From Gammaproteobacteria bacterium (GTDB lineage Bacteria; Pseudomonadota; Gammaproteobacteria; S144-34): a stretch of DNA of 60,648 nucleotides. Position 1 is the stretch's first letter, and every line of letters begins with the position of its first letter. Under the pieces are notes generated by a model. The model had not been told where the DNA came from. It ran no database searches and saw only the letters and a list, made by a program, of their open reading frames with translations. A program made the translations under genes and the position numbers. The DNA lies in NCBI GenBank assembly GCA_026989495.1, contig JALSJE010000078.1, forward strand, positions 1-60,648. The letters run 5' to 3'. Shown piece after piece: positions 29,164-33,023 of the stretch.

Positions 29164-29540
29164 GCCGCGCGCCGGGGCGGGCGTGCCCGCGCGCGGTCCA
29201 CGTCCAGGGCGCAGGCGAAGGGCGGCGGCTCGCGCAGGATGCGGGCCAGGGCGAAGGCCGCCGCGGGGCGCATGTTGACCACGACCAGCTCGACGTCCGC
29301 CAGCCGGCACAGCCGCTCCAGCCTGAGCAGCCACGCATAGTAGACCTGGTCCAGCAGGACCACGTTGCCGAGGTCGTAGATGAGCCGCAGGGCGCGCTGG
29401 GCCTGCAGCCAGGCGAGCAGGGGCTCGGCGTAGAGGTCGGGATCGGTGGGGTCGAAGCCCTCGCCGGGCTCGATGAGCACGTCGCCCCCGCCCAGGGGCG
29501 TGAGGTGCATGCCCTCGATGCGGGCCACCGCCGCCCCCGC

Positions 29541-30443
29541 TCAGCCCGCGCCCGCGCCCACGAGCACGCCCAGGCGGCGGAAGGCCTCCTTGAGCCCCTC
29601 GGCCAGGGTGGAGCGGGTGGTCACCTGCCCCAGGTCGATGTTGAGGCTGGTGAGCGAGCGGGCGATGTCGGGGCGGATGCCGGTGAGGATCGGCTCGGCC
29701 CCCATGAGCGAGATGGCGCGGATCATCTGCACCAGATGGTGCGAGACCTGGGTGTCGATGGAGGAGACCCCCGTCACGTCCATCACCACCGCCTTGGCGC
29801 GGTCGCGCTCGATGCGCGTGAGCAGCCGTTCCATCACCATCATGGCGCGCGAGGAGTCGAGCGTGCCGATGATGGGCAGTGCCAGCACCCCGTCCCAGAT
29901 CTCGGTCACGGGGGTGGAGGTCTGGCGCAGCTCCTCCTGCTGGGCCTGGATGGTGCGCTCCTTCTCCTCCAGGTAGATGTGGAAGATGTCGAGGATGATG
30001 TCGTTGAAGAGCGAGCCGAGGAGCACGACCACCGCGCGCGCGTCCTCGAAGGAGACCTCCTCGGCGGCATCCAGGTTCTCGAGGAACACGCGCTGCAGGA
30101 ACTGGATGTAACGCACGAACTCGTCCAGGCTCGCGCCGCGCGCGCGGATGCGCTTGGAGAAGGTGTTGAAGAACTCGCGCAGCGCCCGGTACTCGGGACC
30201 CCGGCGGTCGATCCGTTCGCCTGCGTGCAGGAGCGAGGCGAACAGCTCCAGGAACTCCAGGCTGTAGTCCGTGATCTCCTCGTTGCTGAGGAGGTTGTCG
30301 CGGCCGAAGATCTGCTGCCCCTCGCGCTCGATCACGTCCGAGATGCGCCCGGTGTTGAGCATCAGGAGCTCGATGAGGAGCTTGTTCACCGGCTTGCGGC
30401 CGGTCCCGGCTTCACGTGCCGCGGTCTTCTTTTTCCTGGCCAT
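29541..30443 (-). CDS. RsbR-like stressosome co-antagonist (N-terminal sensor plus STAS)
   Basis: A 300-residue soluble protein. The N-terminal half (about 20-160) is all-helical and resembles RsbRD-type sensor domains; the C-terminal half is an STAS domain. Both phosphorylatable threonines of RsbR proteins appear conserved: T231 in SSIDTQVSHHL and T254 in PILTGIRP. It should assemble with the RsbS-like protein and be phosphorylated by the RsbT-like kinase encoded just upstream. The ATG at 30443 has a textbook AGGAGGT 7 bases upstream and overlaps the kinase-phosphatase gene by 32 bp. Confidence 0.9.
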   Translation of the reverse strand: MARKKKTAAREAGTGRKPVNKLLIELLMLNTGRISDVIEREGQQIFGRDNLLSNEEITDYSLEFLELFASLLHAGERIDRRGPEYRALREFFNTFSKRIRARGASLDEFVRYIQFLQRVFLENLDAAEEVSFEDARAVVVLLGSLFNDIILDIFHIYLEEKERTIQAQQEELRQTSTPVTEIWDGVLALPIIGTLDSSRAMMVMERLLTRIERDRAKAVVMDVTGVSSIDTQVSHHLVQMIRAISLMGAEPILTGIRPDIARSLTSLNIDLGQVTTRSTLAEGLKEAFRRLGVLVGAGAG

Positions 30444-31473
30444 GGCCCTCACCTCCTGAAACCGCCGTTCGCAGCACGAGCAGCGAACGGTCGTCGCCCG
30501 GCCGCCCCGCCACCTCGCCCAGGAAGAGGGCGACGAGCTGCGGGTGCAGCCGCCACAGCCCGGGATAGCTCGCGAGGCCCCAGCTCCCGCGGATGCCGTC
30601 CGAGGCCGTCACGAGCAGCGCCTGGCGCGGGAAGCGCAGCTCGTGGCACTCGATGCGCCGGTGGGCATGCCCGAGGATGCCCGCGGCGAAAGGGATGGCG
30701 CGGCGCTCGCCGTTCAGCACCAGCCAGCCGGCCATGTCGCCCACGCCGCACAGGCGCAGCCGCCCGCGCGCGGCATCGAGCTCGCCCGCCACCGCCACCG
30801 CGCCGCGCCCGCCCGCCAGCCGCTCGCCGAGTGCGGCCAGCACGGCCTCCGGCGGGCCCGGGCGCGCGAGCAGCCCACCCGCCTGCGCGGCCGCGGCCGC
30901 CGCCTCCGGCCCGTGCCCCAGGGCGTCCACGTGCAGCCAGCGCAGGCGCCGCTCCGCCCAGCGCAGGCGGATGGCGTCGCCGTTGTGCTCGGCATCGCCC
31001 AGCGCGCGCAGGTAGCAGCCCAGCTCCACCGCCGTGCGCGGCCGCCTGCCAGCGACGTGGAAGCGCGCCCACACGGCCACTCCGTGCCAGGCCTGCTCCA
31101 GCTCCGGCCGCTCCGCAACGGAGTAGATGGCGAACTCGTGCGCCATGCGCCGCACCGAGCCCAGCCCGCGGCCCATGGTGCCGGCGGTGGTGTAGCCGTC
31201 CTCGAGGGCGGCGCGCACGTCCGGGATGCCCGGCCCGAAGTCGAGGGCGAAGACGTCCAGGGCAGGCGCCGGCTCGCGCACCTCCCAGAGCTGGATCACG
31301 CCCGTGCCACGCGCGAACTTGGCCTGGTTGGTGGCGAGCTCGCTCGCCACGAGCTCCATGCGCGCGCGCGCCTCCTCCCGGAAGCCCATGCGGCGCGTCA
31401 CCGCGCGCAGGCGCGAGCGCAGCAGCACCTGGGCCGTGTCGTCCCCGGCGGTCTGCTCGGTCAGCAGGCGCAT
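30412..31473 (-). CDS. RsbT-like kinase fused to RsbX/SpoIIE-like phosphatase
   Basis: A 353-residue fusion. Residues 1-140 form a GHKL kinase domain of the RsbT type: N-box ELATNQAKF (E45, N49), DFGPGIPD at 78-85 and GRGLGSVRRM at 101-110, with GYTTAGT between. Residues about 160-345 form a PP2C-like SpoIIE/RsbX phosphatase: VDALGHG, CGVGDMAGW, TASDGIRG and a terminal DDRSLL. One chain could thus both phosphorylate and dephosphorylate STAS partners. The ATG lies 3 bp after the diguanylate cyclase stop. Confidence 0.9.
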   Translation of the reverse strand: MRLLTEQTAGDDTAQVLLRSRLRAVTRRMGFREEARARMELVASELATNQAKFARGTGVIQLWEVREPAPALDVFALDFGPGIPDVRAALEDGYTTAGTMGRGLGSVRRMAHEFAIYSVAERPELEQAWHGVAVWARFHVAGRRPRTAVELGCYLRALGDAEHNGDAIRLRWAERRLRWLHVDALGHGPEAAAAAAQAGGLLARPGPPEAVLAALGERLAGGRGAVAVAGELDAARGRLRLCGVGDMAGWLVLNGERRAIPFAAGILGHAHRRIECHELRFPRQALLVTASDGIRGSWGLASYPGLWRLHPQLVALFLGEVAGRPGDDRSLLVLRTAVSGGEGHGQEKEDRGT

Positions 31474-31476
31474 CCC

Positions 31477-32487
31477 TCAGGAGACTCCGGCCGGGGGCGC
31501 CTGCGCATCGCCCGTGCATGCTCCTTCCTCCAGCTCTGCTGCGGACACGGCCCGGCCGCGCCCGCGGTGCTTGGCCTCGTAGAGCGCCGCATCCGCCCGC
31601 GCCACCAGCCGCTCGGGCGTGTCGCCGGCGTCGAGCGGCGCGATGCCGATGCTGACCTTGCCGTCCATCCGCTCCAGCACCCGGCCGGCCACCCGCCGGG
31701 CCACATCCTCGCCGGCGTAGAGGATGATGGCGAACTCGTCGCCGCCCACGCGGCAGACCTGGTCCACATCCTCGCGCACGGCCGCGCGCATCGCCTCGGC
31801 CATGCGCCGCAGGTAGGCATCGCCGTACTGATGTCCATGGGTGTCGTTGACCTCCTTGAAGTGGTCCAGGTCCAGCAGCAGCAGGCTGAGGGGCTCGCCC
31901 TGGCGCAGCGAGCGCCTGACCGCCCGCTCCAGGCGCAGATCGTAGGCGGCGCGGTTGTAGAGCCCCGTCAAAGGGTCGGTTTCGGCACGGCGGATCGATT
32001 CCTTGAGCTCGGCCTTCTTGCGTGCGAGATCGGCCTGGAGGGCGGCGAGCTCGGCCTCGGCGCGCGCGCGGGCCGCCTCGAGCTCGGCCTGCACGGCCTC
32101 GTTGCGCCGGCGCAGGAGGTCCGGGTCGGCGAGCTCGCTCTCCTGGCGCAGGCGCCGCCGCAGCGCCGCCACGGTGCGGCGGGAAGGCGGACGCGGCAGC
32201 GTGGCGAGCGCCAGCGCCTCGCCGGAACCGATGCGAAGCGTGAGGGCGGGCCCGTCGAGGCTCAGCGCCACCGGCGGGATCCGGCCGTCGGCGCCCGCCT
32301 CCGCCTCGCGCAGACGGGCGATGGCCCCCTCCAGGGGGGCGACGGCGGCAAAGACGTTCCCCCCCAGGGCCTCGACGGCCTCCAGGGCGAAGCGGGCTAG
32401 CCGCTGGCGGTCGGGCTCCACCAGCGGCGTCATGCTGAGCAGCTCCGTCAACCCGCCCCCTCCCGGGCGCTGCGCCCTCGCGCGCAT
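31477..32487 (-). CDS. Diguanylate cyclase of the stressosome-like module
   Basis: A soluble protein of about 336 residues. The N-terminal 100 residues resemble no domain I can name, a coiled coil rich in Ala/Glu/Arg spans about 100-165, and a GGDEF domain follows with RVGGDEFAII intact and DPLTGLYNRAAYD at its start. It should make c-di-GMP. As first gene of a four-gene run with RsbT-X, RsbR and RsbS-like genes, it is the likely output of that switch; the N-terminal region would be the contact point. The start is uncertain: 32520, 32487 and 32433 are all possible. Confidence 0.85.
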   Translation of the reverse strand: MRARAQRPGGGGLTELLSMTPLVEPDRQRLARFALEAVEALGGNVFAAVAPLEGAIARLREAEAGADGRIPPVALSLDGPALTLRIGSGEALALATLPRPPSRRTVAALRRRLRQESELADPDLLRRRNEAVQAELEAARARAEAELAALQADLARKKAELKESIRRAETDPLTGLYNRAAYDLRLERAVRRSLRQGEPLSLLLLDLDHFKEVNDTHGHQYGDAYLRRMAEAMRAAVREDVDQVCRVGGDEFAIILYAGEDVARRVAGRVLERMDGKVSIGIAPLDAGDTPERLVARADAALYEAKHRGRGRAVSAAELEEGACTGDAQAPPAGVS

Positions 32488-32699
32488 CACGCACCCTTGC
32501 GGGCGCCGGCAGACCGACACCCCGCCGGGCTTTGACCAGGATCATGCAATGAGCATGCCGTGGTGACCGAAGCTATCGGGGCAGCCAGGGCGCCGGGGCC
32601 TCGCCAGAGGCCCGGCGAGCCGGTATGCTGTGGCGCCGCCCCCGCGGCGGGGAGGCCCGATGCCCCGCCGCCGTCCGGCCAGCAGGAGGGTGCCCGACC

Positions 32700-33023
32700 A
32701 TGACCTTCGTCGTCACGGAAAACTGCATCAAGTGCAAGTACACCGACTGCGTCGAGGTCTGCCCCGTGGACTGCTTCCATGAGGGCCCGAACTTCCTCGT
32801 GATCGACCCCGACGAGTGCATCGACTGCACCCTGTGCGAGCCCGAGTGCCCGGCCGAGGCCATCTTCCCCGAGGACGACCTGCCCGAGGGCCAGGAGCAG
32901 TTCCTGCAGATCAACGCGGAGCTGGCCAAGATCTGGCCCGTCATCACCGAGAAGAAGGACCCGCCCCCAGACGCCGACGAGTGGAACGGCAAGCCGGACA
33001 AGCTCCAGTATCTGGAGCGCTGA
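32700..33023 (+). CDS. fdxA: 7Fe ferredoxin (3Fe-4S / 4Fe-4S)
   Basis: A 107-residue ferredoxin with the paired-cluster cysteine pattern ([18 protein letters not shown] and [14 protein letters not shown]). The C-terminal extension and length are those of the Azotobacter-type FdI/FdxA family. It is a low-potential soluble electron carrier. AGGAGGG precedes the ATG at 32700; the frame is open upstream but lacks conserved sequence. It is divergent from the stressosome-like module. Confidence 0.96.

Follow-up and report, generated by a model that had tools for sequence, protein, structure and literature searches.

A GGDEF–TX–R–S gene set with a fused kinase–phosphatase and an RsbS-like protein lacking the usual phosphoacceptor: a putative variant of the stressosome

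In the window (the whole stretch of 60,648 nucleotides analysed here), four genes on the same strand encode, in order, a GGDEF protein, a kinase–phosphatase chain (TX), an RsbR-like protein (R) and an RsbS-like lone STAS protein (S). The active-site residues of this set are intact, both phosphoacceptor sites of R are kept, that of S is lost, and no separate RsbT was found. The fusion of kinase and phosphatase is ordinary; the unusual part is the surrounding system, a variant of the stressosome or partner-switch kind. We propose, with close to an even chance of being right, a reduced stressosome-derived partner switch in which TX would phosphorylate and dephosphorylate R, S would be passive, and the state of R would set c-di-GMP synthesis.

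The four-gene locus and its two-domain enzyme

Table 1. Features of the locus and its surroundings, in window coordinates
Feature	Position	Strand	Details
Diguanylate cyclase (GGDEF), first gene of the set	31477..32520	minus	GGDEF motif intact
TX ORF, 353 aa, ATG start	31473-30412	minus	GHKL (HATPase_c_2) kinase and RsbX-like PP2C phosphatase
TX kinase half, residues about 1-140	31054..31473	minus	E45/N49 (N-box), D78-G80 (G1), G101-G105 (G2)
TX phosphatase half, residues about 147-338	30460..31035	minus	D166, D183, D292, D327, D328
R, RsbR-like	29541..30452	minus	RsbRD_N 24.0 bits (cut-off 24.3); STAS above cut-off
R Ser200 (GTG numbering)	29853..29855	minus	Equivalent of RsbR T171 (B. subtilis)/T175 (Listeria); codon verified
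R Thr234 (GTG numbering)	29751..29753	minus	Equivalent of RsbR T205/T209; codon verified
S, RsbS-like lone STAS protein, 153 aa	29067..29528	minus	Weak Pfam STAS, E 0.0016, below cut-off
S Gln61	29346..29348	minus	Position of RsbS phosphoserine (B. subtilis S59); codon verified
Ferredoxin-like gene	32625-33023	plus	Divergent from the cyclase gene
Second GGDEF-motif ORF, 404 aa	35880-37094	minus	A few kilobases from the locus

The first-pass annotation had described two complete domains in one 353-residue chain without giving a strand, and Pfam and an AlphaFold2 model confirmed the description for the minus strand. HATPase_c_2 covered residues 17-117 (E 6.2e-8; 33.1 bits against a curated cut-off of 27.4) and SpoIIE residues 175-294 (E 1.9e-8; 34.9 bits against a curated cut-off of 25), which is the T2X architecture of an N-terminal HATPase and a C-terminal SpoIIE domain on one chain. 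The model, for which 14 aligned sequences served as input, had a mean pLDDT of 88.9 and a pTM of 0.89. In comparisons with the PDB, the C-terminal half matched two phosphatases, 3zt9 from the Moorella stressosome (Z 25.5, rmsd 2.0 Å, 185 positions aligned) and RsbX (3w40; Z 23.3, rmsd 2.4 Å, 193 positions aligned), bearing out the RsbX type first assigned to it; a fold closest to RsbX/MtX is thus combined with the metal-binding Asp residues of an RsbX-like PP2C phosphatase. The X tree gave the window phosphatase half no resolved branch position among RsbX-like proteins. SpoIIAB 1til was among the Foldseek matches of the model (E 1.7e-6, 142 columns), presumably over the N-terminal half, judging from the length of the match; this half was barely covered by the Z-score comparison with the PDB.

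The kinase half carries the N-, G1- and G2-box residues of a GHKL domain. The positions E45, N49, D78, G80, G103 and G105 of this half and D166, D183, D292, D327 and D328 of the phosphatase half were invariant in all distinct relatives covering them (77-79 of 81 readable at each position, the other 2-4 being gaps), and the N-box, G-box and Asp motifs noticed at first sight were thus confirmed. Chance is excluded as the source of the two-domain ORF. TX is plausible as a bifunctional writer and eraser; its kinase half could also be a binding domain only.

TX starts 3 bases past the stop of the GGDEF gene, and the true start of R is likely to be the ATG at 30443, which an AGGAGG precedes and which falls within the end of TX. 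The operon around TX, with the cyclase upstream, the two STAS proteins downstream and the lost phosphoserine position of S, had gone unremarked in the first-pass annotation. R has the make-up of a stressosome R protein, that is, an RsbR-like sensor-STAS protein with two phosphoacceptors, its RsbRD_N match lying 0.3 bits below the cut-off. Profile comparison paired S with the STAS domain of R at 95% probability; the remaining 20 pairs of that run were below 3%. The place of S behind R is likewise conserved among relatives. The ferredoxin-like gene is named from its sequence alone; 18 loci were searched for a homologue, and seven have one (L002, L003, L031, L032, L035, L036 and L037).

Occurrence of the fusion and relatives of the gene set

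The claim that the two opposing enzymes are normally separate was refuted. A HATPase plus SpoIIE chain is a named architecture, and plasmid records call such two-domain chains 'ATP-binding SpoIIE family protein phosphatase'. Matches to the TX model at E <= 1e-20 occurred in 27/398 genomes across the phylum, 24 of them over both halves (source genome included), and published work on Rv1364c, SypE and HsbR also describes a kinase and an opposing phosphatase domain within one chain. We therefore rejected the idea that the fusion itself is exceptional. On a Sphingomonas aliaeris plasmid the fusion is preceded by two STAS proteins and a separate ATP-binding protein, and in Paraburkholderia by a separate anti-sigma regulatory factor.

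We read the surroundings of the matches in the other 26 genomes, 20 first and then six. Among the first 20, 17 held R, S and a separate RsbT together with the fusion, one was of the window type, and two had a fusion without a separate RsbT. The later six were divided between fusions without a separate RsbT (L188, L189 and L193) and enzymes that lie apart (L190, L191 and L194). In five operons with the T2X fusion (L044, L125, L172, L176 and L181), a long downstream protein has a further GHKL domain near its N-terminus, possibly a docking device; the protein is named ATP-binding in L125.

Within the class, TX matches at E <= 1e-8 were present in 22/369 genomes, and 14 of those 22, with the source genome counted in, had a near-full-length TX of the window type. 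Named genomes gave no match when scanned with the TX protein by itself and 78 loci when scanned with the alignment. Those 78 include loci of Thioalkalivibrio, Sulfuricella, Gallionella, Sideroxydans, Thiobacillus, Sulfuricaulis and Acidiferrobacteraceae. After ten duplicate pairs were merged, 81 distinct loci stood beside the window itself, and GGDEF, TX, R and S were all present in 72 of them. Two of the 72 (L056 and L116) show a different gene order in our compilation of loci, which, as their positions suggest, may come from long stop-to-stop frames. In the remaining nine, one or two genes were not in view, and several of these records stop close by. One genome (G028) carries a window-type locus beside a canonical R-S-T-T2-X locus (L041 and L042).

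Phosphoacceptor sites and the lineage of the kinase half

The published phosphoacceptors are T175 and T209 of RsbR and S56 of RsbS in Listeria, equivalent to T171, T205 and S59 of B. subtilis. The RsbS serine is residue 59 in the Listeria RsbS frame used here, presumably because this frame begins three codons earlier. In an alignment anchored on Listeria RsbR positions 175 and 209, the first site of R was Ser in 75/79 relatives and the second Ser or Thr in 75/79, the other four being gaps in each case (75/75 readable). The site of S was conserved in 6/6 of the canonical S proteins compared, all with Ser. In the relatives of the window S, which itself has Gln in place of the phosphoserine of a stressosome RsbS, Ser or Thr occurred in 5/74 and a non-acceptor in 69/74, with Pro in 31, Glu in 11, Gln in 10, Arg in 6 and other residues in fewer. 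The 74 proteins leave aside L124 (at a contig end, 'noX'), L121 (truncated and listed as split, with Pro) and six loci without S in view.

T1 denotes the separate RsbT of canonical loci, and T2 a second kinase that is frequently fused to X. In three trees the window kinase half clustered with the T2 of T2X fusions, apart from T1, with support of 100/98, 92/95 and, in the largest tree, 91/76 with an inner branch of 96/87. Listeria RsbT also fell outside this cluster in the second and third trees. Support in the largest tree was moderate, and T2 proteins not fused to X stayed outside the cluster of the window and the T2X fusions. The label 'RsbT-type' given in the first-pass annotation thus holds for the GHKL fold and probably not for the lineage, as the kinase half groups with fused T2 rather than with RsbT. 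TX also differs from RsbT, a separate protein phosphorylating RsbS and RsbR, in being fused and in facing an S without the serine.

Searching the source genome with canonical RsbT returned only TX and three stop-to-stop frames of at least 434 aa, inside which a short gene could escape the query, and no second GHKL ORF was found in the 91 window-clade loci (duplicates included). The source genome has 19 other HATPase_c_2 matches in frames of at least 434 aa, three other SpoIIE matches (one clearly above the cut-off, one only with its neighbours and one below) and two other STAS matches, so R or S could also be substrates of further enzymes.

We compared the S site between types of loci, excluding L192 (a repeat of L186) and L198 (no phosphatase match). 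Counted over related sequences with shared descent ignored, Ser or Thr stood at the site in 20/20 loci with both a fusion and a separate RsbT, in the 5/74 given above where the window-type fusion is the sole kinase, in 0/5 loci with other sole-kinase fusions (L186, L187, L188, L189 and L193, with L187 and L189 from the same genus) and in 14/18 loci with separate kinase and phosphatase. The four unfused loci without Ser or Thr (L190 and L225 with His, L224 with Arg and L227 with Cys) all belong to one class, and the weak S proteins of L190, L193 and L224-L228 (about 22 to 41 bits) align poorly near the site, making their single residues uncertain. A strict rule that loss of the S site follows fusion was rejected, and fusion need not cause the loss of the serine, because 4/18 unfused loci have lost it too. 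L190, L224, L225 and L227 combine separate enzymes and a GGDEF gene with a lost serine, so the loss may go with GGDEF output or with lineage instead of fusion, but the serine is kept in three other loci that have a GGDEF gene (L183, L191 and L229).

The kinase halves of L186, L187, L188 and L193 formed one cluster (99/89) nested on the RsbT side (96/90), which was set against the fused T2X side with support of 95/97; L189 was outside the tree. Because these halves sit on the RsbT side, sole-kinase fusions appear to have at least two origins. This second lineage belongs to the phylum as well; beside R and S it has a phosphatase fused to a kinase of the RsbT lineage, with no separate RsbT in view, and a GGDEF gene lies downstream in L187 and L189.

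The proposed switch and known systems

The GGDEF motif was intact in 75/75 collected relatives of the cyclase. The column that we take to be the usual product-inhibition site, normally Arg, holds Glu in 42/75 of them and in the window. In the model of the cyclase, a long helix (124-171, coiled coil) lies between a small N-terminal domain and the GGDEF domain. Pfam assigned no family to this N-terminal domain in the window protein; RsbU_N was found neither by Pfam in the window cyclase nor among the families listed (25 of 34) for 12 aligned members. SiaD (7e6g) was the second Foldseek match of the model, a match that the GGDEF domain alone may carry, and searches with the whole cyclase were filled by GGDEF matches, so that the N-terminal domain was barely probed. 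In the model (cyclase at 31480-32493, minus strand), the predicted order of its elements is strand-helix-helix-strand-strand-strand-helix, with lengths like those in the initial portion of the TX kinase half. A decayed GHKL domain was rejected as its identity, since profile comparison gave 0.1% and HMM scores did not exceed those of reversed or shuffled sequences at the median or the maximum. Gene neighbourhood is what would tie the cyclase to the switch, and c-di-GMP is likely the output.

In the switch that we propose, R, with its N-terminal sensor domain, and S would form a STAS core, and TX would serve the locus both as sole kinase and as phosphatase. In TX, the GHKL half would phosphorylate R at the two conserved Ser/Thr residues and the PP2C half would reverse this, whereas the role of S, not phosphorylatable at the usual site, would be that of a fixed anchor. 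Whether R is phosphorylated would then decide the partner of the core, TX or the cyclase, and so set c-di-GMP synthesis. From the genes we infer both activities of TX, complex formation, cyclase binding and the direction of cyclase control. B. subtilis RsbS S59A is described as still transmitting strong stress (PMC3944199), which makes a switch free of phosphoserine plausible and a release of TX without any phosphoserine equally possible. The five window-clade S proteins with Ser or Thr run contrary to the general loss. As to how such a switch may have come about, we tentatively suggest, with rather less assurance than an even chance would give, that separate RsbT disappeared, its place being taken by a T2X enzyme, and that the phosphoserine of RsbS decayed, the second, RsbT-derived fusion lineage having independently gone the same way; tethering of kinase and phosphatase would replace release by phosphorylation, and R alone would signal to the cyclase.

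Classical logic with a fused enzyme would run differently: stress would free TX from R and S, its kinase half would switch the cyclase as RsbT does RsbU, and its phosphatase half would reset the system. A Moorella RsbT homologue is described as acting on a GGDEF protein in a system with the same gene types, and the S59A result, as reported, allows release without the serine (PMC3944199). However, the serine whose phosphorylation is described there as correlating with RsbT release is absent from 69/74 S proteins, no RsbU_N match is listed for the window cyclase, and the kinase half of TX is probably outside the RsbT lineage, and we regard this course as unlikely. A switch of the Sia/Hsb type without a particle, in which R (or S) would bind and activate the cyclase in one state and TX would merely set that state, is improbable to a similar degree: published accounts have SiaC binding and activating SiaD and HsbA~P binding HsbD, and SiaD is a top structural match of the cyclase, though the RsbRD_N-like sensor on R and the RsbS-like partner are as in stressosomes. 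That S is phosphorylated at a shifted residue, with the classical cycle persisting, is very unlikely, since 69/74 S proteins have a non-acceptor (Pro, Glu, Gln, Arg or others) at the aligned site, even if five retain Ser or Thr. Least probable is that one half of TX alone is active in vivo, because, though motifs are no proof of activity and a paper on Rv1364c bears 'Loss of kinase activity' in its title, all checked catalytic residues of both halves are unbroken across the readable relatives.

The proposed partner switch is worth testing chiefly because it is possibly natural signalling without RsbS phosphorylation. The need for this phosphorylation has been argued from B. subtilis mutants, and S59 phosphorylation may, in the published account, overlay an older mechanism (PMC3944199). 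A four-gene set with one enzyme, one cyclase and an S without acceptor in 69/74 cases would make the question testable in a natural setting, with c-di-GMP as a measurable readout. Neither the loss of the S site nor the GGDEF-TX-R-S set was met in the literature titles and abstract openings surveyed, a statement about those texts and not about print as a whole.

Compared with known systems, the locus is nearest in its enzyme to the R-S-RsbT-T2X operons, such as that of the Sphingomonas aliaeris plasmid, with which it shares the two-domain chain and a clustering kinase half. In the 20 such loci read, however, R, S and a separate RsbT precede the fusion and RsbS keeps Ser or Thr throughout, whereas the window locus has no separate RsbT found, has lost the S site and begins with a GGDEF gene. 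The RsbRST(X) stressosomes (the Moorella RSTX-cyclase and Vibrio RSTX modules), as described, likewise have an RsbR/RsbS STAS pair and an RsbX-like phosphatase, and c-di-GMP is a known stressosome output, the Moorella stressosome being reported to regulate a cyclase. The window differs from them in that no separate RsbT was found, the RsbS serine is lost and the order is GGDEF-TX-R-S.

Several published systems of other kinds place a kinase and a phosphatase on one chain. P. aeruginosa HsbR-HsbA-HsbD is described as combining a PP2C and a kinase domain on one chain with an anti-sigma-antagonist substrate and a diguanylate cyclase, but HsbR, unlike TX, has a receiver domain and the domain order PP2C-kinase. 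HsbA is a single small STAS protein, unlike the RsbR/RsbS pair of the window. V. fischeri SypE-SypA and M. tuberculosis Rv1364c are likewise reported as one-chain kinase/phosphatases acting on a STAS protein or domain; SypE, unlike TX, is a response regulator, whereas Rv1364c is described as having PAS and STAS domains within its own chain. P. aeruginosa SiaABCD has, by published accounts, a kinase, a PP2C phosphatase, a STAS-like protein and a cyclase, as the window does, but its kinase and phosphatase are separate proteins. The GGDEF-TX-R-S set is like HsbRAD and SiaABCD in gene content, and its cyclase may, as in those systems, be controlled by the phosphorylation state of a STAS protein.
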